The notes under the pieces were generated by a model. The model saw only the letters and a list, made by a program, of their open reading frames with translations, made no database searches and had not been told where the DNA came from. Positions 1 through 13,515 of a stretch of 13,515 nucleotides of DNA are shown here, piece by piece. Origin of the DNA: Bacillota bacterium (GTDB lineage: Bacteria > Bacillota_I > Bacilli_A > RFN20 > CAG-288); the NCBI GenBank assembly GCA_003497225.1, contig DNJQ01000110.1:1654-15168 (forward strand), read 5' to 3'. The stretch's first letter is position 1, and each line of letters opens with the position of its first letter. The position numbers and the translations under genes were made by a program.

Positions 1-105
1 ATCTCCCGTACTAACCATTCTGCTGACAATATGGGAAAAGTAACTACTAGAACTACCGAACCTCCCATAATAGCACTCACCAAATGGAAAATATGCGAGA
101 GGTAA
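1..105 (+). pseudogene. Frame-broken N-terminal fragment of the edge repeat module
   Basis: Reading from base 1, the frame is open from the window edge and ends at TAA 103-105. Residues from Met 31 read MGKVTTRT, then EPPIIALTKW. They match MGKVTVRT...FLALSPW of the right copy with a two-residue gap. A second start of the same module follows at 93 in another reading frame (MREVKVRS), 62 nt after the first ATG. The left edge therefore holds two successive module beginnings that cannot be read as one protein. It looks like a decayed or recombined junction. What lies upstream of base 1 is unknown. Confidence 0.45.
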
Positions 106-440
106 AGGTACGAAGTAGCTTTACCTCGAGGGGTTACATGTCATTCGGACCATGGAATTATGAGTCACAAAATTATGCTCTTGGTCAAATTAATTTAGGA
201 AGCAACCCATTAAGTAAAGTAGAGATTGTTTCTGTGTTAAATTCCTTTAATTACGCTACATTTTCATGGTGGTATGATGCACCATATGCAACTCCAAAAT
301 ACAATCCAAAAGTGTATATGAGTACCGTCCAAAGTGTATCAAAATCGTGGCTTTACGACTATCAAACCGGCCAAACAAATGGACTCGGAAGGCTGCCCGA
401 AGGAGGTGAAAAAAGTGGCAGTTATATCGTTAATGGCTGA
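84..440 (+). CDS. Hypothetical aromatic-rich module, left copy of the edge repeat family
   Basis: I do not recognise this protein family. The frame encodes 118 residues rich in Tyr, Trp, Asn, Ser and Gly, with no signal peptide, membrane segment or catalytic motif that I can see. Aligned without gaps from the Met at 93, it matches the minus-strand module at the other window edge: 25 of 53 residues identical, then 0 of 15, then 28 of 42, including KYNPKVY and a shared QTGQTNGL segment. There is no Shine-Dalgarno sequence before the Met codons at 84 or 93, and the matching Met of the right copy lies inside a longer open frame. The Met is therefore probably internal to a larger protein, and this copy is a fragment, donor cassette or pseudogene. 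The last residues (YIVNG) lie beyond the shared repeat. The 3' end overlaps the convergent chromate-transporter gene by 19 nt. Confidence 0.5.
   Translation: MENMREVKVRSSFTSRGYMSFGPWNYESQNYALGQINLGSNPLSKVEIVSVLNSFNYATFSWWYDAPYATPKYNPKVYMSTVQSVSKSWLYDYQTGQTNGLGRLPEGGEKSGSYIVNG
252..296 (+). other. Hypervariable 45-nt block of the left edge repeat
   Basis: These 15 codons (YATFSWWYDAPYATP) sit between conserved TCCTTTAAT (243-251) and AAATACAAT (297-305). The equivalent block in the right copy (13278-13322) has exactly the same length and encodes ISHHLYHFNYINCPE. Only 12 of 45 bases and 0 of 15 residues agree. The flanks are conserved at the nucleotide level, including most third codon positions. 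Confidence 0.7.
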
Positions 441-1021
441 TAGAAATTATATATTAATACGCCTAGTCCACCTGCAATTAATATTAAGAATATTGGATGT
501 AATTTGCTCTTAGTTAATTTATTAATTGTATATAAACCAACAAATAATATAATTTGCACCCAATCAAATGTTGCAAATTTCATTGTTTCAGGTTCATATG
601 TGAATATATTCGTAAATAAGAACCAAATACCTGTAGAAAGAATTAAACCTATTATAACAGGGTTAACATATTTAATAATTCTTCTAACATATTTATTTGA
701 AGCAAATGTTTGGAATATAGAAGCTATTATCAATATGATAATTAATGATGGAGTGATAACGCCTAAAGTAGCGCATAAAGAACAAAGTAGTTGCGTACCA
801 AAGTTAGCTCCGCCCTGTGTAGATCCAATAAATGTGGCAATATTTATTGCAAATGGTCCTGGTGTTGATTCACTTATTGCTATAAGTTGACTTAATTCAT
901 CTTCTGCTAACCAACCTAATTCTGTCATTTCTTCCGAAATAAGTGGAATCATGGCGTGTCCACCACCAAAGGTAAAGATACCGATTTTAAAGAAGATTAA
1001 AAACAATTGGAAGTAAATCAT
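422..1021 (-). CDS. Chromate transporter family protein, half-size subunit (second gene)
   Basis: A 199-residue integral membrane protein of the CHR/ChrA family (Chromate_transp domain). Near the N terminus it has FTFGGG (residues 16-21), then STPGP (52-56), followed by several long hydrophobic segments. These are family hallmarks. The length fits a single-domain 'short-chain' CHR protein, which normally works with a partner, here the upstream paralogue. The start ATG overlaps that gene's TGA by 4 nt (ATGA), and a strong ribosome binding site (AAAGGAGG) lies about 7 nt upstream, so the pair is probably translationally coupled. Family members export chromate or related anions; the true substrate here cannot be read from sequence. 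The TAA stop touches the boundary of the left edge repeat, and no terminator is visible downstream. Confidence 0.88.
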   Translation of the reverse strand: MIYFQLFLIFFKIGIFTFGGGHAMIPLISEEMTELGWLAEDELSQLIAISESTPGPFAINIATFIGSTQGGANFGTQLLCSLCATLGVITPSLIIILIIASIFQTFASNKYVRRIIKYVNPVIIGLILSTGIWFLFTNIFTYEPETMKFATFDWVQIILFVGLYTINKLTKSKLHPIFLILIAGGLGVLIYNFYQPLTI

Positions 1022-1692
1022 TTCTCTACCTCCTTTAAGCTCAGCGGGATTGCGCCATCTTTTCCCTCTTCTACGCCGTTAAGCATACTCATAGCACAAA
1101 GGCTAATAGAAAGTCCAAAGGCTATCAAGATAAAATTGATTGTTGAAAAATCAATATTAAAGAATTTAAACACTATAGCTGCTAAAGTTGTTACAACAGT
1201 TAATATACAAAAATATGCTGTCTTCTTCATTTTCTTAAAGAGTTTTTCGGCAGCAGAAATAATTAAAACTGCTACCGCAGCTTGAATGCCTATAAAGGCG
1301 TTCTTAACCCATTTAATTTTAATAAATTCATCAAAGAACAAAGATATAACGAAAATAATTATAAATGAAGGAAGAACTAAAGATAATGTAGCAATTAATG
1401 ATCCAAAAAATCCCCCAACTCTATATCCTACATATGTTGCAGTATTAACAGATACTGGACCTGGCGTAGATTCAGATATTATTAAAACATCCATTATTTC
1501 TATATCTGTCATCCATTTTTTCTTTTCTACTATTTCTCTTTGAATTAAAGGTAGCATGGCATACCCACCACCAAAAGTAAAAAGTCCGATACGGAAAAAG
1601 ACGAAAAAAAGACTCCAACACTTTTTTAGAGTTAGTTTTCCGTGAGAATTTTTCAGTTTGTGATAAAAATCCTTAACCTTATTTTTCTTCAT
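1018..1692 (-). CDS. Chromate transporter family protein, half-size subunit (first gene)
   Basis: A 224-residue paralogue of the downstream CHR protein. A basic cytoplasmic N-terminal stretch of about 25 residues is followed by FTFGGG at 38-43, STPGP at 75-79 and further hydrophobic helices. A hydrophilic C-terminal tail (VEEGKDGAIPLSLKEVEK) is absent from the partner. Two adjacent half-size CHR genes usually form a heteromeric transporter. The start lies 14 nt inside the upstream hydrolase gene and its ribosome binding site is weak (AAAGAAAG), which fits coupled translation. Chromate resistance is the namesake function of the family. In an organism of this kind the physiological anion is uncertain. 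Confidence 0.88.
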   Translation of the reverse strand: MKKNKVKDFYHKLKNSHGKLTLKKCWSLFFVFFRIGLFTFGGGYAMLPLIQREIVEKKKWMTDIEIMDVLIISESTPGPVSVNTATYVGYRVGGFFGSLIATLSLVLPSFIIIFVISLFFDEFIKIKWVKNAFIGIQAAVAVLIISAAEKLFKKMKKTAYFCILTVVTTLAAIVFKFFNIDFSTINFILIAFGLSISLCAMSMLNGVEEGKDGAIPLSLKEVEK

Positions 1693-2791
1693 CTTTCTTT
1701 TTCTTTCTAAAAAATCTATTCGATAAATAGGTGTGAATTATACTCTTCACTAAACCTTTTATCTCCTTTTGTACGCTTTCATCTTCCTTTTTGAAAAGCC
1801 TTTTGAAAGTTTTAAATAGCCGCAACCGATGTTTTCGTAGCTCTATTACGGTATTTATTTTAGCAGTATCAAAGAGCAAAAACACTCTATTAATATAAAA
1901 TTCTAGTTTTTCATCAGTTAAAGAATTATAAAAATTATCTAAAGATATCTTTATTGCCTTGGAACTTTTATGGTTATGAGAAAGTTGAATAAAATTTCCA
2001 TCTTTAGTAATATCCCATTTAAAGGGATTATGTTGATTTATTCCGGAATGGGCGGAACATTTTACTATCTTCGCTTTAGGAATACAGTTTAGTAAAACTC
2101 CGATAATTGAGTTAGCTGGAATAAATCTTTCTATTTTGTCTTCTATTCTTTGATAGCCTTCTAATGAAGTAATATCTTTTTTAAATCCCGGACCATCGTG
2201 ATCAAAAATTTTCGTTATTCTTTTTTGAAGTTTCTTTTCTACACTAAATGAAGAATAAATAGCTACATTACCACCTTTACTGTGACCACCGATATAGATA
2301 GGTAAAGAACTATCTTCATATTTTTTTATTACTTTCTCGATATACTTTTTTCCATAGGTGTGGGAAGGAATAACTTCGTGCAAAGCTAAATATAAATCTT
2401 CTTTCCATCCAGTTATCGTTATATCTGTTCCACGAAATCCAATATAAATAAAATCATCACACCTAAAAGTCATCGAAGCATATTGGATGATATTTGAATC
2501 AGAATTATCGATATGAAAATCTTCAATGATTATTTCTTTATATCTTTTAGCTGAACTAACAGCCTTAATAAATTTACGATAAGTTCCTGGATAAAGAGTT
2601 TTATCAGTTAATTTATTAATGCGGGAAGGGACAAACAAATTGCATACAGCTACTTTTTGATTAGAAGAAGATATGATATTTTCAAATAGCAAATATGTTA
2701 AGTTTGTTAGTATCAAACTATCTGCTGGTGAAAAAGGTAATTCAGAAAATGTCCTCTCACCATGCCTTTTTATGTATGTAGTTATATTCAC
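1679..2791 (-). CDS. Mbeg1-like (DUF2974) alpha/beta-hydrolase
   Basis: A 370-residue protein of the DUF2974/Mbeg1-like lipase superfamily. The N-terminal segment FSELPFSPADSLILTNLTYL is typical of the family. FRGTD at 119-123 is an oxyanion-region strand. GHSKGG at 169-174 is the nucleophile elbow (Ser171), DHDGPGF near 197-203 is a candidate acid, and His248 or His254 could complete the triad. The C-terminal tail is very Lys/Arg-rich. There is no signal peptide, so it is probably cytoplasmic; the substrate is unknown (lipid ester or thioester by family). It is the first gene of the operon with the two transporter genes. The start is GTG, as no in-frame ATG lies nearby. There is no Shine-Dalgarno, but a TAGAAT hexamer sits exactly 6 nt upstream, compatible with a leaderless mRNA. 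Confidence 0.85.
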   Translation of the reverse strand: MNITTYIKRHGERTFSELPFSPADSLILTNLTYLLFENIISSSNQKVAVCNLFVPSRINKLTDKTLYPGTYRKFIKAVSSAKRYKEIIIEDFHIDNSDSNIIQYASMTFRCDDFIYIGFRGTDITITGWKEDLYLALHEVIPSHTYGKKYIEKVIKKYEDSSLPIYIGGHSKGGNVAIYSSFSVEKKLQKRITKIFDHDGPGFKKDITSLEGYQRIEDKIERFIPANSIIGVLLNCIPKAKIVKCSAHSGINQHNPFKWDITKDGNFIQLSHNHKSSKAIKISLDNFYNSLTDEKLEFYINRVFLLFDTAKINTVIELRKHRLRLFKTFKRLFKKEDESVQKEIKGLVKSIIHTYLSNRFFRKKKKDEEK

Positions 2792-2796
2792 ATATA

Positions 2797-2810
2797 TATT
2801 CTATAGAATA
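2797..2810. promoter_or_regulatory. Perfect 14-bp palindrome, candidate operator
   Basis: TATTCTATAGAATA is its own reverse complement. It lies in the 128-nt gap between the hydrolase operon and the divergent PucR-like regulator, and covers the candidate -10 hexamer of the hydrolase gene. A dimeric regulator bound here would block that promoter; the adjacent regulator is the obvious candidate. This is inference, since AT-rich DNA can form such palindromes by chance. Confidence 0.4.
2798..2803 (-). promoter_or_regulatory. Candidate -10 element of the hydrolase operon (leaderless spacing)
   Basis: On the minus strand TAGAAT (5 of 6 to TATAAT) is followed by 6 nt (ATATAT) and then the GTG start. 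The expected transcription start falls on the start codon. I found no good -35 hexamer at 16-18 nt spacing, so support is weak. Confidence 0.3.
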
Positions 2811-2908
2811 ATCATAATTAATTCCACAAGCAAAAGTTACAACTTTTTACAAAATTTTCAATTTATCTAATGTATTTTGCCTTTAAAACAAGTAAGATAT
2901 TTATTAAA

Positions 2909-2914
2909 GAGGTG
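2909..2914 (+). promoter_or_regulatory. Ribosome binding site of the PucR-like regulator
   Basis: GAGGTG with a 5-nt spacer before the ATG at 2920 supports this start. I could not identify a convincing sigma-70 promoter upstream in the AT-rich gap. Confidence 0.7.
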
Positions 2915-2919
2915 AAAGA

Positions 2920-4038
2920 ATGAACCTATCAGAAATATTGCACAATATCATCTTAGACTTTGAATCGCTGAAAGAAGATGGGGATACATTAGGCTTTGTT
3001 AATGAAAAACAAAAAGTTTTTATATCTAGCGACGACTCAATTAAAAACAAAAGCTATAATGAAGCGCGACTTATTAGAAAGAAGGTGCGACAAAGGATAG
3101 TAATGGGAAGCTCGATGGGAAGAGTTGTTGAATTAAGGCCAGTCACATATTTAAACGAGATTATTACCGTTTCGGCAATCTTAACAAAACCAGATCGAAT
3201 TGAGGAAAAAGAAAAACTCGTAGATGAATTACTTCACAAATGGTTTTCTTTAGCGCAGAAAGAAAGAGTTGAAGAAAGTAAAAACAATGAAGAAAAATTA
3301 TTAAATGGACAAATTATTAATAATAAGTCTACTGAAAAAAAGATAAAGAAGAAAAAAACTCTCGATAAAAAACAAGTTGAAAAACTTTTGCTCGATAAAG
3401 ATTTTGCGTTTATTAAAGCGTGGCTAATCATTTCACCTTGCGCTAAAGAAGTTTCTTTTATGGAAGATTTAAAGAAACTATTTCCGAAAGGTAATATTGA
3501 AACTACCGATATCGGTATCATTGTTATTAGTAATGAAGAACCAAACGAAATATTATCGAATCTTGCTAATAAATATAATTGTTCAATCTATTCTTCATTT
3601 AAGTTTGATGAAAAGTTCAAAGATCAAATTAACAATGCTCTTTTATCATTAACCTATGTCCCTGATCCAATCAAAAAGAATGGAGTTATTGCTTATGAAG
3701 ACAACAAAGATCGTTCAAGCGTTATATTATCTTATCTAAATACACCATATCTATATTATAACGATATAAAATCTTTGCATCTTTTAAAAAGGAATGTTGG
3801 TCTTTATAACACATTCATGGCTTTTGTTAAAACACATTTTAATTTCAATAAAACGTGTGAAATATTAAAGGTTCACCGCAACACGGCATACAATAGATTA
3901 AAAATCATCGCTGATAAATTTCATAATAAATCCAATGATGAAGCATTTTTCTATCACCTTTATTCAATCTATATCTTATCTTTAGCCATGGAAAAAAACT
4001 TTTTACCTGATATAACTTTTAAAGACGCTCATTTATGA
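2920..4038 (+). CDS. PucR/CdaR-type helix-turn-helix transcriptional regulator
   Basis: A 372-residue protein with the PucR C-terminal HTH domain (HTH_30) at roughly residues 293-345. The segment TCEILKVHRNTAYNRLKII is the family signature, with VHRNTAYNRL at 318-327. The N-terminal 120 residues are not recognised. A lysine-rich linker (around 138-156, KKIKKKK) joins them to a middle domain that could be the degenerate GGDEF-like fold found in CdaR relatives. The family regulates catabolic or transport genes, often next to the regulator. Here the divergent hydrolase/CHR operon is the likely target, with a 14-bp palindrome between them. The 3' end overlaps convergent rlmH by 10 nt, leaving no room for a terminator between the two genes. 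The inducing signal is unknown. Confidence 0.78.
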   Translation: MNLSEILHNIILDFESLKEDGDTLGFVNEKQKVFISSDDSIKNKSYNEARLIRKKVRQRIVMGSSMGRVVELRPVTYLNEIITVSAILTKPDRIEEKEKLVDELLHKWFSLAQKERVEESKNNEEKLLNGQIINNKSTEKKIKKKKTLDKKQVEKLLLDKDFAFIKAWLIISPCAKEVSFMEDLKKLFPKGNIETTDIGIIVISNEEPNEILSNLANKYNCSIYSSFKFDEKFKDQINNALLSLTYVPDPIKKNGVIAYEDNKDRSSVILSYLNTPYLYYNDIKSLHLLKRNVGLYNTFMAFVKTHFNFNKTCEILKVHRNTAYNRLKIIADKFHNKSNDEAFFYHLYSIYILSLAMEKNFLPDITFKDAHL

Positions 4039-4505
4039 TACGTTTGATTAGCTATTATTTTATTAGCACGATATATTTGTTCCATGATGATGACTAAAGT
4101 CATGGGATGAAGGAAAGTCATTTCCGATAATTTTAAAAGTAAATCAGCACGAGTTCGGAGCTTATCGCTCAGCCCATAGGATGAACCAATGACTATTTTG
4201 ATGTTGCTTTTAATACTTTTATTTTCTTCAATATATTTAGCTAAACTAACTGAATCCATCATTTTTCCGTGTAAATCACAAAGGATTACTAAATCTTTAG
4301 AATTTATTCTCGCTAATACTTTCTCCGCCTCTTCATCTAATGATCTTTTAATTTGACTTTCGTTCGGCTCTTTTTTAAAAGAAGTTTCTTCAACAAAAAC
4401 AACCTCTGTTTCACCAAATGCTTGAAGCATCTTCTTATAATTTGCTACAGCTTCAACAAAGTAGTTTTCCTTAAGCTTACCAACAAGGATAAAAGTAAAC
4501 TTCAC
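4029..4505 (-). CDS. rlmH: 23S rRNA (pseudouridine1915-N3)-methyltransferase RlmH
   Basis: A 158-residue SPOUT-class methyltransferase that uses S-adenosylmethionine to methylate pseudouridine 1915 in helix 69 of 23S rRNA in assembled 70S ribosomes. Length and ends match the family: MKFTFILVGKLKE at the N terminus, the SAM-binding knot IVIGSSYGLS (105-113), the conserved MTFLHP and MEQIYRA segments and the invariant C-terminal YHK. The usual Arg after HxM is Thr here (HPMTLVI). The start is GTG, overlapping the TGA of yycJ (GTGA, 4 nt), with AGGGAG about 8-9 nt upstream. Last gene of the rplI operon, in the same neighbourhood as in Bacillus. It converges on the regulator gene with a 10-nt overlap. 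Confidence 0.95.
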   Translation of the reverse strand: MKFTFILVGKLKENYFVEAVANYKKMLQAFGETEVVFVEETSFKKEPNESQIKRSLDEEAEKVLARINSKDLVILCDLHGKMMDSVSLAKYIEENKSIKSNIKIVIGSSYGLSDKLRTRADLLLKLSEMTFLHPMTLVIIMEQIYRANKIIANQTYHK

Positions 4506-5257
4506 TTCACTAACTCCCTAATATATGTCGGTTCATCTTGTTTAAGATAATATACTTCAATGTTTTCCATTACTTTTCCTCTTTGAGCGATAAAGACTTC
4601 CTCATAGGCGCTTTTTATATGTTCAACCGTGTTACAATCGCGCGATATATGAGCAAACATTATAGCCTTTGTTTTTTCACCTACTAGGCAAGAAAGATAA
4701 TAAGAAGAATCATAGTTATTAAGATGTCCCGTAGAAGAAATGTTGCGCTTAATTAAATAGATTGGGCGATTTGACTTCATTTCCATCGTTGTATCATGAT
4801 TAGATTCAAATATATAATAATCAGCATCATTAGATAGTTCTAAAGTTTTTTCCGGAATAAAACCAGTATCAGTTATATATACTACTTTTTCTTTTGTATA
4901 ATTAGAAAACAAAATATATCCAAAACACGTAACATCGTGACTGAGTTTAACTGGAGTTACTTCAAATGTCCCAAAGCGATAAATCACATATGGTTTTAAA
5001 GCGTTTTGTTTATTTGAAACAATATCCTCTGGTCCAAATCTAATTTCATCTTTAAATTTATCTTGATGTTTGACGTGGTCTATGTGTCCATGAGTTAATA
5101 GTAACGCCAAAATATCGCTTGGGCCTTTACCAAGCGTTTCAAGACAATTTTTAACTCGAGTCAAAGCTAATCCGGCATCGATCATTAATAATGTCTTACC
5201 ATCATAAATTAAAGTCGAATTACCCGAACTTCCTGAACCTACATTAATTATTTTCAT
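4502..5257 (-). CDS. yycJ: YycJ/WalJ-like metallo-beta-lactamase-fold hydrolase
   Basis: A 251-residue MBL-fold protein. The metal-binding motif THGHIDH is at 55-61 (His56, His58, Asp60, His61); further ligands are likely His107 in LSHDV, Asp130 in YITDTG, and the SNHD segment at 152-155. SGNSTLI near the N terminus is typical of the YycJ/WalJ subgroup. Related proteins are 5'-3' exonucleases (WalJ/ExoN) implicated in mismatch repair or in coordinating division with replication in Gram-positives. The walKR genes that accompany it in Bacillus are not in the window. It lies between dnaB (14-nt overlap) and rlmH (4-nt overlap), with only a weak ribosome binding site, so expression is probably coupled to dnaB. 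Confidence 0.88.
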   Translation of the reverse strand: MKIINVGSGSSGNSTLIYDGKTLLMIDAGLALTRVKNCLETLGKGPSDILALLLTHGHIDHVKHQDKFKDEIRFGPEDIVSNKQNALKPYVIYRFGTFEVTPVKLSHDVTCFGYILFSNYTKEKVVYITDTGFIPEKTLELSNDADYYIFESNHDTTMEMKSNRPIYLIKRNISSTGHLNNYDSSYYLSCLVGEKTKAIMFAHISRDCNTVEHIKSAYEEVFIAQRGKVMENIEVYYLKQDEPTYIRELVK

Positions 5258-6695
5258 TTTTCAAAGACTCTAAAAAATAATCTGGGATTTCAAAGCGACA
5301 ATGAGGTTTATCAAATTGGAAAATAACTGTTCCTGTTCTTCCGTTACGGTTTTTAGCTACATCAAGTTCAACTTGTGATATACCACTGTCTTCCACATCT
5401 GAATCTCCTGGTGTTGGAACTTCAGTTGCTTCTTGTGCACCATCTTTTTTATCAGTTCCCTTATCTTGATCTTTATTGCGATAATAATCTGGACGATATA
5501 AAAGGTAGACCTGATCAGCATCTTGCTCAATAGCACCTGATTCACGAAGGTCTGATAACTCCGGATTATGGGTCTTTCTTTGATCAACACCACGGGAAAG
5601 CTGACTTAAAGCGAGAACTGGAATCTGTAAATCTTTCGCCAAGTTTTTTAAACTTTGGGAAATTAATGCCACTTCCTGCTGTCTATTTCCATCTTTTCTT
5701 TGAACATCAGGGACGATTAAACCGATATAATCAATAACTATAAGTCCTAAATCTGGGCGCGCTGCTTTAAGTTTTCTAGTTTTAGCTAAGATATCTCCAA
5801 GTTTTTGACCAGCAGTATCATCGATAAATATAGGTAACTTTTTAAGTTGCTCAATACCTGAGCTAATTAGTTTACGATTATCGATAATATCTTTCTCGTT
5901 GCTATCTTTATTTTCTAGAGCATAATGAATAGCACTTCCATCAAGACTTGTTTGATTTTGTAATAAACGCATGGCGATAAGCTTGCTATCCATTTCTAAG
6001 GAAAATATTCCAACAGTTCTTCCTTTCATAGCAACATTAAGGGCAAAGTTAAGTGCTAAAGCAGTTTTTCCTACCGAAGGTCTAGCGGCTAATATACATA
6101 AATATCCCGGTTGTAAGCCACCACTTAAACGATCTAGTTCATTATAACCTAAATTAATAACTTGATTAGGTTTACTAAATTCGATGACCATTTGCTCTAA
6201 AGCGTCATCGATTTTATAAAAGTCGGTAACTTCTCTTTGTTTAGTTATCGAGATAATTTTCGATTCAATTTGACTTAAGAACGAAGAATTATCAATGGCT
6301 TTTTCTTCATACATCTTTTGAAGTTCTTCAAAGGAAAGAAAACATTTACGAACCAAAGAACTATTCTTTTGTTTTCTGATATAAGTTTCTAAACTGCTAT
6401 TACCGATAGCCGCAGCTTCAAGAAGATCTAAGTAACCTTCTCCACCAGCAGCTTTTTTTAGTTTATTCGCTTCTAAAAAATCGAGGATTGTCGCATGATC
6501 AATAGTAAACTTTTTATCGGTAGAGTTTTTTAAAAAATCTGCGTATATCTCTTTTAAAGCATGAAAAACAATCTGGTTTTTCTTATCCGCTATATCATCC
6601 TCTTGAAGAGTTTCAAGAGCGACACGCGATTGTTCAGGATAAACTAAAATGTTACCAATAATAGCATTTTCAATTGATAGATTGTCCTGATTCAT
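5244..6695 (-). CDS. dnaB: Replicative DNA helicase DnaB (DnaC in Bacillus naming)
   Basis: A 483-residue hexameric helicase that unwinds DNA ahead of the replisome. The N-terminal helical domain spans about 1-105. The RecA-like ATPase has Walker A ARPSVGKT (204-211), FSLEM (231-235), Walker B LIVIDYIGL (318-326), LSQLSRGV (363-370) and SDLRESGAIEQDAD (381-394). The C-terminal NRNGRTGTV strand is conserved. The stretch at about 407-438 (KDQDKGTDKKDG... to DVEDSG) is a hydrophilic, mostly acidic insertion longer than the short linker usual after the Tyr-Arg motif. The N terminus is short, starting directly at NLSIENAIIG. The start overlaps the rplI stop by one base (TAATG), with AAAGGAGA upstream. 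Confidence 0.96.
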   Translation of the reverse strand: MNQDNLSIENAIIGNILVYPEQSRVALETLQEDDIADKKNQIVFHALKEIYADFLKNSTDKKFTIDHATILDFLEANKLKKAAGGEGYLDLLEAAAIGNSSLETYIRKQKNSSLVRKCFLSFEELQKMYEEKAIDNSSFLSQIESKIISITKQREVTDFYKIDDALEQMVIEFSKPNQVINLGYNELDRLSGGLQPGYLCILAARPSVGKTALALNFALNVAMKGRTVGIFSLEMDSKLIAMRLLQNQTSLDGSAIHYALENKDSNEKDIIDNRKLISSGIEQLKKLPIFIDDTAGQKLGDILAKTRKLKAARPDLGLIVIDYIGLIVPDVQRKDGNRQQEVALISQSLKNLAKDLQIPVLALSQLSRGVDQRKTHNPELSDLRESGAIEQDADQVYLLYRPDYYRNKDQDKGTDKKDGAQEATEVPTPGDSDVEDSGISQVELDVAKNRNGRTGTVIFQFDKPHCRFEIPDYFLESLKNENN

Positions 6696-7144
6696 TAACG
6701 AGTCTTCTCCTTTACATGAATATGAATAGTTGATACTACACCTTTATAAAGTTCAATTTTCATTTCACCTGTTCCAAAATAAGTGACTGGTTCAGCTTTA
6801 ACAAACTTCTTTTTATCAACATTATAACCTAATTTATTCAATTCATTTTCGATCTGTTTTAAAGATATTTGACCAATCATATAGCCGTTTCGACCACAAG
6901 AAGCCTCAAATTCCAATGTTACTTTATCAAGCTTTTCTTTAATAACTAGAGCTTCTTGCTTTAACTTTTCTTGGCGATCAGCTTCATCTTGTTGTTCTTT
7001 TTTATAATTGCGTAGGGCTTCTTCATTAAAAAGTTTTCCATATCCTTGTGGGATGATGTAATTAGCACCATATCCATCAGATACATTTACTACTTCGCCC
7101 TTTTTTCCAACTTTTTTTAAATCTTTAATCATCAATATTTTCAT
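6695..7144 (-). CDS. rplI: 50S ribosomal protein bL9
   Basis: A 149-residue bL9 protein. It has an N-terminal rRNA-binding domain (MKILMIKDLKKVGKKGEV, then VSDGYGANYIIPQGYG), a Lys/Glu/Gln-rich connecting helix (about 45-80) and a C-terminal globular domain. The start is the ATG at 7144, because GGAGGG lies about 7 nt upstream and the product then begins as the family does. A TTG five codons earlier falls inside that binding site and is rejected. It is the first gene of rplI-dnaB-yycJ-rlmH, and the rplI-dnaB pairing is the same as in Bacillus. A sigma-70-like promoter lies about 40 nt upstream. Confidence 0.96.
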   Translation of the reverse strand: MKILMIKDLKKVGKKGEVVNVSDGYGANYIIPQGYGKLFNEEALRNYKKEQQDEADRQEKLKQEALVIKEKLDKVTLEFEASCGRNGYMIGQISLKQIENELNKLGYNVDKKKFVKAEPVTYFGTGEMKIELYKGVVSTIHIHVKEKTR

Positions 7145-7181
7145 GTCAAAGCCCTCCAATATTTAAGTTATATATATAAAT

Positions 7182-7209
7182 AGTATAACGGAAAACATAA
7201 TAATGTCTA
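7182..7209 (-). promoter_or_regulatory. Sigma-70-type promoter of the rplI operon
   Basis: On the minus strand TAGACA (5 of 6 to TTGACA, positions 7209-7204) is followed by a 16-nt spacer and TATACT (5 of 6 to TATAAT, 7187-7182). Transcription would begin near 7175, giving a leader of about 30 nt that includes the GGAGGG ribosome binding site of rplI. Confidence 0.65.
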
Positions 7210-7220
7210 GTACAAAAGGT

Positions 7221-7268
7221 GTTGATTAGAAACAACTTCTAATTCTATTAATAAATTGTTTCTTCAAC
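7221..7268 (-). terminator. Hairpin region between rsmI and rplI, possible weak terminator
   Basis: A perfect 7-bp stem (ATTAGAA 7225-7231 with TTCTAAT 7237-7243, 5-nt loop) overlaps a larger alternative: GTTG 7221-7224 with CAAC 7265-7268, and GAAACAA 7229-7235 with TTGTTTC 7256-7262. The two pairings exclude each other. On the minus strand the hairpin follows the rsmI stop and is trailed by CAACACCTTTT, which is not a proper U-tract. Terminator function is possible but weakly supported. Confidence 0.3.
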
Positions 7269-7287
7269 AAAAATCAATTAAATAATA

Positions 7288-8151
7288 CTATAATTTGCTC
7301 TTTATACAAAGTTTATAAACGTAGTTGCGAGGAAGATCATATTCATTAGCTATGTCGCGGCAAGCTTGAGAAAGTGATTCACCAAATTCTAGTTTCTCTT
7401 TAACCAAACGAAGTATTTCTTCATCGTCAAGCAGTGTTTTTTCTTGACACTTATCGATTATTATTACAAATTCACCTTGCTCAACAAAATCTTCCATTGC
7501 ACATATTTCATTTAAAGTACCATAGATATGATTTTCATATCTTTTAGATATTTCACGCGATATAGCAATCTTTCTTTCCCCACCAAATACTTTCTTTAAA
7601 GTCTCTAAAGTTTTTTTAATACGGTGCGGAGCTTCATAAACAATAAGCAGTTCATCTTTTGAAGAATACTCTTTTAACATCTTTTCTTTAGCACTATCTT
7701 TAATTGGTAAAAATCCAATAAAAGTAAATTTTGAAGTATCAAAACCTGAAACAGTTAAAGCTGGAACAAAGGCCGTTGGTCCCGGTAAAGCTATTACAGC
7801 AATGTCTTTTTCTAAAGCTAATGAACATAAAATTCCACCGGGATCAGAAATACCAGGGCTACCAGCATCGGAACAATAAGCTAAAATCAAGTTTTCCTTT
7901 TGAATCTTTTCAATTATAGCTTTTCCCTTTTCTTTCTCGTTTTGACTGTAACAAGAAATAAGGGTTTTATTTTTTATCCCTAATTTATTTAGTAAATCAC
8001 TAGTTACTCTTGTATCTTCCGAAGCTATTATATCCGCCTCCGTTAAAACTTCAATTGCTCTTGAAGAAATATCTTTAATATTTCCAATCGGAGTTGGAAC
8101 TAAATATAATGCAGGCTTTATAGAGTTAGTAAAAATATTTTTAACGCTCAT
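7288..8151 (-). CDS. rsmI: 16S rRNA (cytidine1402-2'-O)-methyltransferase RsmI
   Basis: A 287-residue tetrapyrrole-methylase-fold enzyme that 2'-O-methylates C1402 in the P-site region of 16S rRNA using S-adenosylmethionine. Motifs in order: LYLVPTPIGNIKDIS (from residue 15), ASEDTR (43-48), CSDAGSPGISDPG (93-105), ALPGPTA (121-127) and GFDTSKFTFIGFLP (136-149). A C-terminal helical region (about 245-287, ESLSQACRDIANEY) is the RsmI-type extension. It is the last gene of the dnaX operon; its ATG lies 11 nt inside the ricT gene and it has no strong ribosome binding site of its own, so coupling is likely. In Bacillus yabA and others separate ricT from rsmI; here they are adjacent. Confidence 0.95.
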   Translation of the reverse strand: MSVKNIFTNSIKPALYLVPTPIGNIKDISSRAIEVLTEADIIASEDTRVTSDLLNKLGIKNKTLISCYSQNEKEKGKAIIEKIQKENLILAYCSDAGSPGISDPGGILCSLALEKDIAVIALPGPTAFVPALTVSGFDTSKFTFIGFLPIKDSAKEKMLKEYSSKDELLIVYEAPHRIKKTLETLKKVFGGERKIAISREISKRYENHIYGTLNEICAMEDFVEQGEFVIIIDKCQEKTLLDDEEILRLVKEKLEFGESLSQACRDIANEYDLPRNYVYKLCIKSKL

Positions 8152-8947
8152 GTTTAACTTGATACTTTCTTAGTTCTTTTTTATCCAAATTTATATATTC
8201 TTCCCCGTCAAACAAAGTAACAACGTCAGTAAGAAGATTTAAACCTGTGATGCGGTATTCCTTTTTATCGATGATGTATTTTTCTCCAATCTTTGGAGCT
8301 TTCTTTCTTAACTCAGCGTAATTATCATCCTCATATTTTAAACAGCAGATGAGTTTTCCGCACTGTCCAGATAATTTAGGAATATTTAATGAAAGAAGTT
8401 GGTTTTTCGCCATATTGATCGATATTACATCAAAGTTTTTGATAAATGTTGAGCAGCAAAGTTTCAACCCACAAACACCGATTCCGCCGATAATTTGCGC
8501 TCTATCGCGCGACCCGATTTGACGCATTTCTATATGGGTATGGAAGGCTTTGGCGAATTCTTTAACTATCTCACGGAAATCAACTCTCTCTTCCGCGCTA
8601 TAGATGATTAAAAGTTTTGAAGTATCTAACGATAGAATTGTCTTTAAAACTTTCATCTCTAAGTTCCGACGATTAACAGTTTCAATAACATATTTTGCTA
8701 TGTCCGCTTCTTGCTTTTTTACAATATTCGCTAGTTTTTCATCTTCTTTAGTAGCGACACGCAAAATTTTTGGAAACGATTCAGTCTTACTAGTATCAAT
8801 ACTAGCGCACGATTCAACATTTCCTAAAGATAAACCAACTGAGGGATCTTCAACGATGACCTTAGTATTAGGCACTAAACTTTCACTACTCACATAGTAT
8901 AAAAGAGTTGTTTGATGAAGCCTTACTCCTAATAAATATTCACTCAT
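8141..8947 (-). CDS. ricT: PSP1-domain protein RicT (YaaT)
   Basis: A 268-residue YaaT/RicT protein. The central PSP1 domain is followed by the cysteine-rich segment GIGVCGLKLCC (Cys159, Cys164, Cys165) and GQCGKLICCLKYE (Cys196, Cys201, Cys202). In Bacillus, RicT forms the RicAFT complex with RicA (YmcA) and RicF (YlbF). That complex carries iron-sulphur clusters and acts with RNase Y in mRNA processing. The partners are not in this window. The start overlaps the holB TGA by 8 nt (ATGAGTGA) and has a good ribosome binding site (GGAGGG about 7 nt upstream), so it may be translated more strongly than its neighbours. The holB-ricT adjacency is conserved with Bacillus. Confidence 0.93.
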   Translation of the reverse strand: MSEYLLGVRLHQTTLLYYVSSESLVPNTKVIVEDPSVGLSLGNVESCASIDTSKTESFPKILRVATKEDEKLANIVKKQEADIAKYVIETVNRRNLEMKVLKTILSLDTSKLLIIYSAEERVDFREIVKEFAKAFHTHIEMRQIGSRDRAQIIGGIGVCGLKLCCSTFIKNFDVISINMAKNQLLSLNIPKLSGQCGKLICCLKYEDDNYAELRKKAPKIGEKYIIDKKEYRITGLNLLTDVVTLFDGEEYINLDKKELRKYQVKHER

Positions 8948-9872
8948 GATTACCCTCCAATATCCAAACTAACCTTCCTACTACCATGGTGGGTGAAAAA
9001 TTAAGCTTAATATTGCTTATAACTTCCTCCAAAAAAGTAGTAGCGTTAAATATCACTTCACGGTGATTTTTTAAACCTATAACAGAATCCTTAAATGGTG
9101 ATTCTAAATTGTTTTCTAGCACGTCCATAAACACTTGATATATGATGCTATAGAAGTAATTATAGCATAAATTACCTTTCAATGATTGAAGCATTTTAAA
9201 TAACTCATTAAAAGCTTTCTTTTCATTATATACATAATCAGTTAAAAACTTATTTGCCGCTTCATAAGCGCTAGAAAATGCTTCTTCACTATCTTCTTCA
9301 CCATATAAAGACAAATGAAGTTTAAAACGTAAATAAGTGCTTTTACTATTTATAATTTCATCATCCGTAAAATTATGAGGTAATACTCTTAGAGAAATAA
9401 CTCGCGAAAGAATCGTGGGAAGAATCTTTTCTTTTCTAGTTGTCGTAAGTATGGCATAAACATCTTTTGGCGGTTCTTCTAAAAACTTTAATAAGGCATT
9501 AGCCGCTTCATTTCTCATATTGGAAACTTCATAGATTGAATATATAGCTATAGGGTTTTCTTCACCCCGAGTTAAAACGAATTGCTCTAAAAGACTATTT
9601 ATTTGTTCTTTTTTTATGAAATCTTGTCTTCCATCAAGGAGAACATAATTATCTAATTGGCCTTCATCAAACTTTTTGCAGTTTTTACACTCGTTACAAG
9701 CAAAATCTTTTTCACACAAAAGTGATTTAGCTAAAAATCTTGCTGTTTCTTCAATCGGTGATCCGCTTTCGCCATAAAGAAGAATGGCGTGAGGCAAATG
9801 CTTATTCTTCAAAGAATTAGTGAAAAAACTATAGATGATTTTTTGTTCTTTAAAGAATTCATCTCTATTCAT
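8940..9872 (-). CDS. holB: DNA polymerase III delta' subunit
   Basis: A 310-residue clamp-loader subunit that works with tau/gamma (DnaX) and delta to load the beta clamp. The N-terminal AAA+ region has a degenerate P-loop (GESGSPIEE, 34-42) without the Lys-Ser/Thr pair. A Cys4 zinc module has Cys53, Cys59, Cys62 and Cys65. Then come ANALLKFLEEPP (124-135) and the sensor segment KILPTILSRV (149-158). The loss of the ATP-binding lysine fits delta', which does not hydrolyse ATP. The C-terminal half is diverged, as usual in the family. Overlaps tmk and ricT by 8 nt each; the ribosome binding site is weak (AGAG). Confidence 0.93.
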   Translation of the reverse strand: MNRDEFFKEQKIIYSFFTNSLKNKHLPHAILLYGESGSPIEETARFLAKSLLCEKDFACNECKNCKKFDEGQLDNYVLLDGRQDFIKKEQINSLLEQFVLTRGEENPIAIYSIYEVSNMRNEAANALLKFLEEPPKDVYAILTTTRKEKILPTILSRVISLRVLPHNFTDDEIINSKSTYLRFKLHLSLYGEEDSEEAFSSAYEAANKFLTDYVYNEKKAFNELFKMLQSLKGNLCYNYFYSIIYQVFMDVLENNLESPFKDSVIGLKNHREVIFNATTFLEEVISNIKLNFSPTMVVGRLVWILEGNHE

Positions 9873-10500
9873 AATGCTCTTTTAGTTTCTCCAGCATCTT
9901 TTTTTGAACTTGCTCATAAACTTCTTCAAATGGTTTTTCAGCATCGACTTTATAGATTCGATCACTAAATCTCTCCGCTAATTCCATATAACCATCGTGA
10001 ACTTTTTTATGGAAATCTAATTTCTCTAAATCTAATCTATTTACTTCGCGGCTTGAAGAAGCGATTCTATTTAATCCTACTTCTGGCTTAATGCAGAAAA
10101 GGAATGTTATATCAGGAATACAGTTTTCAATTGCGAACATGTTGATCGATAAAACATCATCAATTCCTATGCCACGCGCATAACCTTGATAAACGAGCGA
10201 AGAATCTAAATATCTATCCGAGATTACTGAGATATTTTTTTCTAACGCCGGAATTACTTTTTCTACAAGGTGCTGACGACGAGATGCACAGTAAAGTAGC
10301 GCCTCGGTTTTATAATCCATATCAGTGTTCTCTTTATCTAAAATGATATTTCTTATCTCTTCACTGATTTTTGTTCCACCTGGCTCTCTTGTTAAAAGTA
10401 ACGGGAATTTTCCTTCTAGTTCAGCGATTAATTTTTTAATAACTGAACTTTTTCCTGATCCTTCTCCGCCTTCAAAAGTTATAAATAATCCTCTATTCAT
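9865..10500 (-). CDS. tmk: Thymidylate (dTMP) kinase
   Basis: A 211-residue kinase that converts dTMP to dTDP with ATP for DNA synthesis. The P-loop is FEGGEGSGKSS (9-19), the TREPGGT substrate segment is at 37-43, and DRYLDSSLVYQGYARG (95-110) is the family signature. A short Arg-containing lid follows (SSSREVNRLD). Length is normal. The start shares ATGAATAG with the end of recR (8-nt overlap), and GGAG lies about 10 nt upstream. Position between recR and holB resembles Bacillus with the intervening small genes removed. Confidence 0.97.
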   Translation of the reverse strand: MNRGLFITFEGGEGSGKSSVIKKLIAELEGKFPLLLTREPGGTKISEEIRNIILDKENTDMDYKTEALLYCASRRQHLVEKVIPALEKNISVISDRYLDSSLVYQGYARGIGIDDVLSINMFAIENCIPDITFLFCIKPEVGLNRIASSSREVNRLDLEKLDFHKKVHDGYMELAERFSDRIYKVDAEKPFEEVYEQVQKKMLEKLKEHYE

Positions 10501-11110
10501 TTTTCTTGTACTCCGATAAAACTACACGTCCATTTAATGACCTAGTGATAGTCATGTCATCAACGTATTCTAAATCCGCGCCTAAAGGTAATCCATAAGC
10601 TAAACGCGAAACTTTAACTTGTTTATTTTCTAATAATTTAGCGATATATAAAGCAGTAGTTTCTCCGTCAACAGTTGAATTTAAAGCTAAAATAACTTCT
10701 TTAACATTATTTTTATCAATAACTGATAATAATTCAGGAATATGAACATCATCAGGGGAAACATTTTTTAAAGGCGATATAGTTCCACCCAAAACAAAAT
10801 ATTGTCCGTGATAAATATTGTTTTTCTCAAAAGATATGACATTTCTTGTTTCATTAACTACCAAAAGCGTATCTTGGTCGCGAGAAATATCGCTGCAGAT
10901 TGGGCATTCATCAGAATCGATAAAAACGCCACAATTGGGACAGCGGTGAACCTTATCTTTAACCGCCATTATAGCCTCAGAGAAATTTTTTAAATCATCG
11001 GGGGAAAGTTTTAAAGTCGCGTAAGCTAATCTCTCTGCTGTTTTTTCTCCAATACCAGGAAGCTTTTGAAAATATCTTTTGATATCAACTATTGACTTAA
11101 TTGGATCCAT
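10493..11110 (-). CDS. recR: Recombination mediator protein RecR
   Basis: A 205-residue RecR, which with RecO (and RecF) helps load RecA at gaps. It has the helix-hairpin-helix LPGIGEKTAERLA (17-29), a Cys4 zinc finger (Cys57, Cys60, Cys69, Cys72), a Toprim domain from LLVVNETRNV (82-91) and GQYFVLGGTISPL, and the C-terminal GLPLGADLEYVDD region. All expected elements are present and the length is standard. It follows ybaB after 2 nt; a weak AGGA sits upstream of the ATG. It ends inside the tmk start codon region (TAG within ATGAATAG). Confidence 0.97.
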   Translation of the reverse strand: MDPIKSIVDIKRYFQKLPGIGEKTAERLAYATLKLSPDDLKNFSEAIMAVKDKVHRCPNCGVFIDSDECPICSDISRDQDTLLVVNETRNVISFEKNNIYHGQYFVLGGTISPLKNVSPDDVHIPELLSVIDKNNVKEVILALNSTVDGETTALYIAKLLENKQVKVSRLAYGLPLGADLEYVDDMTITRSLNGRVVLSEYKKNE

Positions 11111-11112
11111 AA

Positions 11113-11418
11113 TTACATTCCAGGAAATTTCATTCCACTCGTCATAGATGAAGATATCTCATCTAATTCGTCTTGAATTTGTTTAACCGCTGCATTGATG
11201 GCGGAAAGAATTGCATCGGAAAGAATATCTTCATAATCCTCGCTTAACATTTCTTTTGAAACTTTTACATCGACGCATTCGTAATTTCCCTTTAAAGTGA
11301 TAGACACTGCATTACCCGCTGAAGTTCCAACAAATTCTTTTTCTTCAAGTTCAGCCTGTTTTTGCTGTGCATCTTTTTGTAAAGAAGAAATCTCTTTAAA
11401 TAGTTTGTTTATATCCAT
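11113..11418 (-). CDS. ybaB: YbaB/EbfC nucleoid-associated protein
   Basis: A 101-residue small DNA-binding protein of the YbaB/EbfC family. It has an N-terminal amphipathic helix rich in Lys, Gln and Glu (about 7-28), a central beta region (GTSAGNAVSITLKGNYECVDVKVS), a C-terminal helix and the tail MTSGMKFPGM. Family dimers bind DNA with little sequence preference. It lies between dnaX and recR in very many bacteria, as here. The gap from the dnaX stop is 11 nt and the ribosome binding site is GAGGTGG. Confidence 0.94.
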   Translation of the reverse strand: MDINKLFKEISSLQKDAQQKQAELEEKEFVGTSAGNAVSITLKGNYECVDVKVSKEMLSEDYEDILSDAILSAINAAVKQIQDELDEISSSMTSGMKFPGM

Positions 11419-11429
11419 ATAACCACCTC

Positions 11430-13046
11430 TTAAATCTTTTCTATTTTTTGCGGCTTAGGCAACTTTTGAATTTGGTTTAATTGCCTAAACATTGTAATCG
11501 CATTTTTATATTCCTCACCAGTCATAGCGTAAACTACTGGTGAAAACCCGAACGCCTTTGACATTAATTCTTGATAAATCTTTCTTGTTCCGTTGTTATT
11601 TATGCGGCTTACTTGAGCGATGAGCGGAGTTTCTACCACAATGATATTTTCATTAACAATTCTAAGAATTGTGCAAGAAAGATAATTCGCTGCTAATCCA
11701 TATTTTTTATCACTTCGATATTCTTTTAGGACATTCCACTTAGCCATTAACTGCTCTTTAAATTCCTTATCACCTTGAAGCATGATGTTAATTACTTCGT
11801 TTTCATCAAAGTGAAGTAAGTCATCAGGATTAACCTGCGGAGCGACATCAACTATAGGTTTTTCTTCTTCTAGTTCAATCTTGTTTTCAACTGGTGAAAC
11901 AACTGGCTGAACTTTTTCTTTAACTTCTTCATCTTTCTTTTCAACTTCTTTTATCGTTGGAATTTCAATTTTAACTTTAGAAATTGAAAGAAGTTGAATA
12001 ATTGATAACTCAAAGTGATCAAATGAATTATTAACCAGTTTATATTGCCGACGAGCTTCAGTTAAAATATTTAAATTATTAATTAATTCTTGTGGCCCTA
12101 TAGCTAAAGGTAAAGCCTCTTCCGGAGTTAAAACTGTTAATAAGGATTTGTCTTTAGTAGAACCATAGATAAGTAAATCTTTATAAATATTAACTAAATC
12201 ATCGTGAAGTCTAACGATATCTGCTCCGTGAAGATACTTTTCTTTTATCATAGACAAAGTTTCTTTAACTTTATTTTCATGAATATTCTTTACTATCTCT
12301 ATTTTTTCTTCAATAGATAATAATCCGAATAAAGTTTCTACATCGCTAGATTCAACTTTGTTTCCACTATAAGAAACTACTTGTTCCAAAATAGATAGAG
12401 AGTCTCTTGCTCCGCCTTCAGCAAGGCGCGCAATCATTCTTAAAGCTTCACCAGTATATTCAATATTCTCTTTTTCCAAAACTTTCTCCATATTAGAAAC
12501 AAGATCTTCATCACTTATTTTAGAAAAATCATATCTTTGAACTCTACTCAATATGGTAGGTAAAACCTTTTGCGGTTCAGTAGTAGCTAAAATAAATATT
12601 ACATGCTCCGGTGGTTCTTCTAATGTTTTAAGTAAAGCATTAAAAGCTGAGTTTGTCATTGAGTGTACTTCATCAATGATGTAGACCTTATATCTACCAA
12701 GAATAGGTTCATAACGAACTTGCTCAATAAGTTCACGAATGTTATCAACACCAGAATTACTAGCTGCATCTAATTCATAAACATCAGGATGGGTTCCACT
12801 AATTATAGCTTTACAGTTTTCACACTCTCCACATTCATGTCCCACACCTTCTTCACAGTTTAAGGCTTTAGCAAATAATCTCGCCAAAGTTGTTTTTCCT
12901 GTACCGTGTGGGCCACAAAAAAGATAAGCATGTCCTATTTTATTATTGAGCAATGCATTCTTTAATGTTCGGATAATAGGCTTTTGTCCTACAACCTCGT
13001 CGAAACTTTGAGGTCTATATGTGCGATAAAATGATTGATATTTCAT
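11430..13046 (-). CDS. dnaX: DNA polymerase III tau/gamma subunit
   Basis: A 538-residue clamp-loader ATPase. Motifs numbered from the chosen start: SFYRTYRPQSFDEVVGQ at the N terminus, Walker A GPHGTGKT (45-52), Cys4 zinc module (Cys64, Cys72, Cys75, Cys78), IIDEVHSM (123-130), ALLKTLEEPP (137-146) and the KVLPTILSRVQRYDF sensor. Residues of about 370-420 form a Lys/Glu/Pro/Val-rich linker before the C-terminal tau-specific domain. I chose ATG 13046 because homology begins there; the open frame reaches a TTG at 13085, but those 13 extra residues look non-native. There is no Shine-Dalgarno, yet a perfect TATAAT ends 6 nt before the ATG, suggesting a leaderless mRNA. First gene of the seven-gene operon ending in rsmI. 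Confidence 0.95.
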   Translation of the reverse strand: MKYQSFYRTYRPQSFDEVVGQKPIIRTLKNALLNNKIGHAYLFCGPHGTGKTTLARLFAKALNCEEGVGHECGECENCKAIISGTHPDVYELDAASNSGVDNIRELIEQVRYEPILGRYKVYIIDEVHSMTNSAFNALLKTLEEPPEHVIFILATTEPQKVLPTILSRVQRYDFSKISDEDLVSNMEKVLEKENIEYTGEALRMIARLAEGGARDSLSILEQVVSYSGNKVESSDVETLFGLLSIEEKIEIVKNIHENKVKETLSMIKEKYLHGADIVRLHDDLVNIYKDLLIYGSTKDKSLLTVLTPEEALPLAIGPQELINNLNILTEARRQYKLVNNSFDHFELSIIQLLSISKVKIEIPTIKEVEKKDEEVKEKVQPVVSPVENKIELEEEKPIVDVAPQVNPDDLLHFDENEVINIMLQGDKEFKEQLMAKWNVLKEYRSDKKYGLAANYLSCTILRIVNENIIVVETPLIAQVSRINNNGTRKIYQELMSKAFGFSPVVYAMTGEEYKNAITMFRQLNQIQKLPKPQKIEKI

Positions 13047-13052
13047 GCCAAT

Positions 13053-13058
13053 ATTATA
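13053..13058 (-). promoter_or_regulatory. Candidate -10 element of dnaX (leaderless spacing)
   Basis: TATAAT on the minus strand is separated by 6 nt (ATTGGC) from the dnaX ATG, which places the expected transcription start on the A of the ATG. No clear -35 is present at 16-18 nt; TTGGAT occurs at a short 13-nt spacing. The absence of a ribosome binding site fits, but AT-rich DNA yields such hexamers often. Confidence 0.4.
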
Positions 13059-13136
13059 AACCAAAGAACCTATCCAAAGCCACAATAAAATATAATATAT
13101 ATAATATAATTACAAAATGGATTGTTATTATATCAA

Positions 13137-13515
13137 TTATGTCTTGTAACAACTGCCACTTTTTTGAGGGCTTCCGTCCTGGTTTGCGAGGCCATTTGTT
13201 TGACCGGTTTGATTGTCGTAAAGCCACCAAAATGATACACTTTGGATGGTACCAAAATATACTTTCGGATTGTATTTTTCAGGGCAGTTTATATAATTAA
13301 AATGGTACAAATGATGGCTTATATTAAAGGAGTTCAGCGAAGAAACAATCTCTAACTTCGCAATGAAGTTGTTTCCTAAATTTATGGCTGAATAATCATA
13401 AGGACCATAATCTCCTCCCCATGGGGATAGTGCTAGGAATCCTCCCGAAGTTCGGATAGTTCTTACAGTTACTTTTCCCATCTGCTCGACCGCATTGTAG
13501 GAATCAGGGGAGATT
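13137..13515 (-). CDS. Hypothetical aromatic-rich protein, right copy of the edge repeat family (5' end beyond window)
   Basis: I do not recognise the family. The frame is open from the window edge (first full codon at 13514) through ISPDSYNAVEQ, then MGKVTVRT at 13481, to TAA at 13137-13139. With no ribosome binding site before the Met at 13481, this is probably the C-terminal part of a longer protein. It is rich in Tyr, Trp, Asn, Ser and Gly, and likely all-beta by composition and alternation. Conserved segments shared with the left copy are INLG, EIVS, LNSFN, KYNPKVY, QSVS, WLYD and QTGQTNGL. The last four residues (CYKT) lie beyond the shared repeat. It lies 90 nt upstream of dnaX on the same strand. 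The function could be surface, adhesive or recognition; nothing decides this. Confidence 0.55.
   Translation of the reverse strand, partial: ISPDSYNAVEQMGKVTVRTIRTSGGFLALSPWGGDYGPYDYSAINLGNNFIAKLEIVSSLNSFNISHHLYHFNYINCPEKYNPKVYFGTIQSVSFWWLYDNQTGQTNGLANQDGSPQKSGSCYKT
13151..13515 (-). repeat. Edge repeat, right copy (inverted relative to 1-423)
   Basis: Conserved blocks matching the left copy are at 13467-13481, 13341-13354, 13233-13277, 13192-13226 and 13151-13165. The homology ends at 13151, after AAAAAAGTGGCAGTT read on the minus strand. Sampled 60-nt stretches here have 42% (13381-13440) and 48% (13441-13500) G+C, well above the neighbouring genes. The 5' limit is outside the window. Confidence 0.75.
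13278..13322 (-). other. Hypervariable 45-nt block of the right edge repeat
   Basis: It encodes ISHHLYHFNYINCPE between conserved AAATACAAT (13269-13277) and TCCTTTAAT (13323-13331), both read on the minus strand. It matches the left block (252-296) at only 12 of 45 bases, with identical length. Confidence 0.7.

Follow-up and report, generated by a model that had tools for sequence, protein, structure and literature searches.

Results

Two cassettes at the edges of the window

The DNA analysed here (the window) is a stretch of 13,515 nucleotides from a Bacillota bacterium of the CAG-288 lineage, taken from contig DNJQ01000110.1 of the assembly GCA_003497225.1. This assembly comprises 882,665 bp in 150 contigs and is 61.75% complete; the window corresponds to C107:1654-15168. 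An earlier note on the sequence had pointed to homologous protein modules in inverted orientation at the two edges. Our analysis confirmed them, and the encoded proteins are 45% identical.

The left complete cassette lies at 60-423 on the plus strand, where a single open frame of about 121 codons, without its own start, fits positions 2-365 of our nucleotide model (E 6e-91). The right complete cassette, at 13151-13514 on the minus strand, is likewise a single open frame and fits model positions 2-365 with an E value of 2e-97. Both end in the conserved 3′ terminal sequence AAAAAAGTGGCAGTT, located at 409-423 (plus strand) and 13151-13165 (minus strand; C107:14804-14818), respectively. The two modules match in inverted orientation without gaps over 128 nt (296-423 with 13151-13278, 80%) as well as at 220-251 with 13323-13354 (84%) and at 14-55 with 13457-13498 (74%). 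The note had singled out a block of 35 bases with 33 identities. This count is correct and was reached in none of 200 shuffles, but the place was one base off: the block lies at 347-381 (plus) and 13193-13227 (minus).

A truncated 5′ unit (1-59, plus strand; model positions 2-60, E 1.9e-4; translation ISRTNHSADNMGKVTTRTT) is stacked ahead of the complete left cassette in a different frame. At the other end of this cassette, the last TT falls inside the stop codon (422-424, minus strand) of a convergent ChrA-like gene. The region 422-1692 (minus strand) holds two neighbouring half-length ChrA-like genes, both under the NCBIfam cut-offs.

The sequence ATCTCCC, which had been noticed at both window edges, is indeed found there and represents the 5′ end of the module. 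The right edge is a true contig end (position 15168 of 15168) and coincides with the 5′ end of the right cassette; dnaX, above its NCBIfam cut-off, comes next in the same direction. The left edge adjoins a scaffold gap of 272 N. As the same 24 bases flank this gap on either side, the left module probably follows on without interruption from the TAA of the upstream ORF. In the assembly, 13 of the 28 N gaps are bordered on either side by the same 9-24 bases, including those at 719-993 and 1382-1653 of locus L039 (C107), and the stated gap lengths are therefore probably artefacts.

Copy number and ends of the cassettes

The modules had been taken for members of a dispersed family with many copies, and the genome bears this out: it holds at least 56 copies rather than only the window pair or ordinary unrelated genes. 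Cassettes were recognized at 42 places by DNA search, at 38 by protein search, and at 48 by a profile search with a loose cut-off. The 15-base 3′ end AAAAAAGTGGCAGTT occurs at 57 places, 33 of them forward and 24 reverse; 49 match it exactly and 8 differ by one base. The reversed control occurs at none. Two of these ends flank one gap in C90 with the same flank, hence the count of at least 56. The density is about one cassette per 16 kb. Divided by the completeness of the assembly, the count suggests about 90 cassettes in the full genome, provided that the assembly is representative.

Fourteen copies aligned with their flanks gave a nucleotide model of 366 positions. A complete cassette measures about 365 bp (~120 codons) and has sharp ends. 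Its 5′ end reads [A/G][C/T]CTCC, with TAA or TAG just before it in many copies and CGCC in others. GGCC directly follows about half of the 56 3′ ends and gives way to unique sequence; this tabulation required a 12-base core, whose constancy there is by construction. The initial ~28 residues make up a unit that can occur twice or in stacked form, namely in the left cassette of C107, at two places in C29, in C23, and in the proteins P0006, P0014, P0033, and P0050. The G+C content of the module is 38.3%, compared with 32.5% in nine window genes.

At the termini, the codons for Ser, Gly, and Ser do not vary in these copies, although they are rare in this genome (TCC, 7% for Ser; GGC, 9% for Gly), and three metagenome proteins (P0022, P0110, and P0045) run through the 3′ end in a different frame. 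The ends thus look constrained as DNA. An internal inverted repeat, GGAAACAA...TTGTTTCT (window 197-232; alignment columns 139-174), is mostly kept at the DNA level in the 14 copies. No compensatory change was found in it among these copies, and the covariation term is near zero.

Reading frame and missing start

For the frame test, 60 model rows were split into 30 longer copies and 30 shorter or weaker ones. None of the 30 longer copies has a stop codon in one particular frame, while the other five frames contain 236, 246, 249, 166, and 155 stops in total. Among the remaining rows, 26 are without a stop and 4 have one each. Decayed copies do occur: C31:3778-3985 carries an internal stop, and the protein match in C32 spans three. 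Differences per codon position in the longer copies amount to 0.40, 0.35, and 0.43. Overall, copies diverge strongly, with 34-65% amino-acid identity to the right window copy. When 106 alignment columns (at least 80 of 121 sequences each) were compared, 12 proved hypervariable and 31 strongly conserved. Hypervariable columns set in a conserved framework point to a segment that may bind a partner or be exposed to immunity.

The only regular methionine, Met12, is kept in 23 of the 24 copies having that column. In the 31 5′ ends of the start test (C73 and C35, with no boundary motif, were left out), the stretch upstream of this Met shows no stops in 338 in-frame codons, whereas the other frames have 4 and 36. 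Thus, coding constraint sets in ahead of this one regular Met. In 30 of the 31 ends, Met12 is not preceded by a Shine-Dalgarno motif. Since the same test was positive in just 5 of 11 window genes, this alone is weak evidence, and the stop-free stretch is the stronger. At 4 of the 31 ends an in-frame start was seen upstream, in one case antisense to another gene; at three others the contig ends first. Nearly all copies are without a credible start, and the stop codon sits in the unique flank at a varying distance.

Gene surroundings

The expectation that cassettes lie between genes was borne out when both of their ends were compared with ORFs, and they often touch a stop codon. According to a simple purpose-made ORF finder, 34 of 56 3′ ends face a gene stop and 22 a gene start. 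Nine of the former lie at most 2 nt from the codon, compared with none of the latter. One 3′ end, in C79, overlaps a predicted 80-aa ORF by 40 nt. The 36 rows of 5′ ends, which include nested ends and one false end, face a stop in 19 cases (7 within 1 nt) and a start in 14 (none within 2 nt); 3 have no gene. We read this pattern as a spacer that may have been eroded down to the stop codon and an essential cassette end. Beside the cassette of L054 (C59) lies an ORF pair (187-1568, minus strand), which we take to resemble HipA and its HTH partner.

Assembly breaks and probable exchange between copies

The earlier suspicion that the assembly breaks at this repeat proved right: no more than 400 bp separate 42 of the 57 3′ ends from a contig end, whereas 7.7 such ends would be expected if they were uniformly distributed. 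Additionally, among 33 readable left contig ends not chosen for a 3′ end, 6 stop by eye in or at the 5′ part of a cassette (C47, C48, C51, C54, C62, and C74). When 221 ends of contigs or gaps were examined, 32 proved to stop in a 3′ end and 18 were flagged as 5′, two of which (C53 R and C72 L) are false and were not counted.

The exact break positions are informative. Eight 5′ contig ends (C5, C54, C112, C29, C3, C48, C52, and C74; C5 and C54 were assigned solely from their flank motif) break off at or immediately before the first variable base or no more than 3 nt away from it, with a unique flank alongside, and five 5′ ends stop one word of ~24 bases inside the cassette. The word length itself is suggested by the gap overlaps, which reach 23-24 bases and point to an assembler word near 24. 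A stop at the first variable base would mean that one flank is followed by several cassettes, and a stop one word inside that one cassette start follows several flanks. Eleven 3′ contig ends also stop no more than 2 nt away from where the sequence becomes variable. As 6 of these 11 have the GGCC flank, so that a match between loci is possible, it is the 5′ ends that carry the argument for exchange.

Metagenome proteins show a similar picture. P0005 and P0075 have 8 of 9 residues of the downstream tail in common and are 56% identical overall, tails included; P0112 and P0115 have 6 of 6 tail residues in common and an overall identity of 52%, again with tails. Apart from their tails, the members of each pair are as different as other cassettes. 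P0003 carries the downstream tail of C36 from the genome studied here (13 of 13 residues), and P0054 has 6 of 8 tail residues in common with C37. In a compatibility test with 23 copies, every one of 1000 site shuffles exceeded the observed value at four windows; with codon shuffles, 17-67 of 2000 were at or below it. We regard these tests as moderate support for recombination.

Taken from the contig breakpoints at the first variable base and the two metagenome pairs with the same tail but different modules, our reading is that cassettes have probably been exchanged between flanks in different cells or strains. Within the earlier idea of a recombinational reservoir for surface or recognition variation, exchange between copies is thus supported indirectly; a surface location or recognition function of the product would be conjecture.

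Occurrence in other samples and genomes

A search of 5.8 billion proteins returned 23 matches, including those of the window itself. With a profile, the same collection gave 204 protein clusters, of which 120 (99-179 aa) were listed. Among these 120, 113 consist of one sequence each, and nine come without a source and were taken for the genome studied here. Four proteins (P0098, P0109, P0119, and P0120) on other contigs represent a divergent form of the module in which the head is rich in glycine and the tail reads QKGE rather than QKSGS; this is perhaps the same system in another species. As to taxonomy, DnaB is 35% identical to a protein of an uncultured Bacilli MAG, with Clostridia MAGs next at 28-30%, and P0088 carries a label beginning with Firmicutes/Bacil; the genome is therefore probably from the class Bacilli.

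The genome searches sampled the family, order, class, and phylum. No cassettes outside this genome were found in overlapping sets of 196, 279, and 395 genomes. In 392 genomes of the phylum, two further genomes gave matches of 31-33 residues (E 7e-4 and 8e-4), which we judged to be chance. The phage collection had no match to the right module, and neither had the plasmid collection to the one query used there, P0098. A scan of GTDB contigs with A1 yielded 38 pattern matches, and scans of viral contigs with A1 and A4 yielded 25 and 53; none was confirmed in either collection. These collections may omit the genome studied here or very near ones. A 17-base end pattern in three viral contigs lies inside other frames and was also judged to be chance.

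Searches for a family, an expression gene, and a recombinase

The module has no convincing match to a described family or structure in the collections searched. The best Pfam E value for the two window proteins was 0.09; across 121 members no family occurred in more than 3, with 0.0028 as the best value. PHROGs (best E 0.12) and PDB (0.88) gave nothing better, and Rfam had no hit on the window at gathering score. AlphaFold2, run twice (pLDDT 47 and, with 121 sequences, 54), predicted no fold. A literature search, conducted mostly in papers free of subscription, returned nothing on the cassette family.

The note had advised looking for a full-length expressed copy with a promoter and a signal peptide. 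We saw no such copy in the assembly, which is 62% complete, nor did we find module-bearing proteins of about 236-750 aa. The copy in C59 was considered as an expression copy and rejected, since its upstream frame is antisense to another ORF.

The assembly contains three tyrosine recombinase genes (C134, C28, and C2). Of the two scanned, the one in C134 is above the XerD cut-off and the one in C28 above none; neither passes the integron-integrase cut-off. The C28 gene (L103, 483-1394) encodes a 303-aa protein and adjoins a cassette end. Its best relatives (54%, 47%, and 44%) are found in three other genomes, unlike the cassettes, which only this genome has among the 196, 279, and 395. It is a candidate for a dedicated cassette enzyme. 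No cassette array was seen in the assembly, a reverse transcriptase (PF00078) had no match in its 62%, and inspection by eye of aligned internal copies with both flanks revealed no target-site duplication.

Discussion

This genome contains many dispersed copies of a short cassette with sharp conserved ends and one open frame, lying between genes. We consider a dispersed, genome-wide archive of silent cassettes for recombinational variation the leading explanation, with a probability of roughly one half. The most likely use is that of a variant store copied into a putative expressed gene absent from the assembly. The proposed course would be as follows: cassettes move between places through crossovers that fall close to the conserved ends and within conserved blocks inside the cassette, so that a given flank carries different cassettes from one cell or strain to the next. 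A cassette might then be copied into an expression gene supplying the start, leader, and constant part of the product. Such a gene could belong to the 38% of the genome that the assembly lacks, or contig ends may have split it. A more radical form, which we put forward tentatively, is that about 90 intergenic sites across the whole reduced chromosome each hold one interchangeable, startless, hypervariable cassette between fixed DNA ends, swapped among all sites, with or without a single expression gene.

Several known systems resemble this arrangement. In Mycoplasma genitalium, nine dispersed partial coding loci (MgPar) recombine with an expressed adhesin gene to generate variants (PMC2169797). 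Both there and here, partial coding copies are dispersed over a reduced genome, but the nine MgPar loci and their expressed partner contrast with at least 56 copies and no expressed partner found here; Pfam and PDB searches showed no relationship between the proteins. For tprK of Treponema pallidum, 53 silent donor cassettes are reported (PMC10063172). Here, too, there are dozens of putative silent donors, with variable segments framed by conserved ones. The tprK donors are clustered, whereas the cassettes described here are scattered over the chromosome as single copies.

Startless cassettes are also a feature of vls in Borrelia burgdorferi, where they donate sequence to one expression site by gene conversion (PMC2632889). 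The likeness lies in the missing start. The vls cassettes form an array beside the expression site; here they are dispersed and the expression site is putative. The RepMP elements of Mycoplasma pneumoniae are implicated in sequence variation (PMC3472980). Both they and our cassettes are repeated in a small genome and linked with variation. RepMP elements are large and far fewer per family, unlike the short cassettes with sharp ends. In shufflons and integron cassettes, too, coding segments that lack a start or can be exchanged have a fixed short sequence at their boundaries, and they form arrays beside a recombinase; here no array was seen, and the tested recombinases fall below the integron-integrase cut-off. 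By analogy, the best explanation is that the system may work like MgPar, tprK, or vls donors in a more scattered form. It cannot be filed with these three, because the expression site is putative and the proteins show no relationship in the searches made.

Other explanations were weighed against the silent archive. It is doubtful that the cassette is a non-autonomous mobile element with an unused open frame, ending up just after stop codons and owing its variety to age and recombination between copies. Sharp ends, many dispersed copies in both directions, the nested 5′ ends in C107 and C29, the contact with stop codons, and the three tyrosine recombinase genes would all suit such an element. 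A passenger frame would nevertheless lose its openness, and this one is open in 56 of the 60 rows; we also saw by eye no target-site duplication in the aligned internal copies, and the two sample pairs show a common flank holding different cassettes, for which replacement is a better fit than insertion. We find it unlikely that each module is a separate small gene translated from Met12, in which case the modules together would make up a huge family of small proteins, secreted or intracellular. The retention of Met12 and the fact that gene finders start many metagenome proteins there speak for this, but constraint on the frame reaches upstream of Met12, the stop codon lies in the unique flank at a varying distance, and the Shine-Dalgarno motif is nearly always missing, although only 5 of 11 window genes score positive themselves. 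Finally, a conserved RNA or DNA structure with an incidental open frame seems very improbable. While the ends are conserved at the DNA level and the internal inverted repeat is mostly kept, the repeat lacks compensatory pairs, Rfam gives no match on the window at the gathering score, and stops are absent from one frame only.

If the archive reading is right, the finding has a wider meaning. Most known archives of silent variants belong to pathogens, which use them to evade antibodies; with an archive of such size and such even spread, an uncultured bacterium with a small genome would be investing heavily in the combinatorial variation of one protein. Should cassettes be swapped over the whole chromosome, the chromosome itself would be the shuffling deck, which would be a new arrangement and not a larger example of a known one. 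The cassettes explain much of the fragmented assembly of this genome, and their fixed ends offer a directly testable recombination substrate. Taken together, they resemble an extensive reserve of variants for a putative expressed protein.
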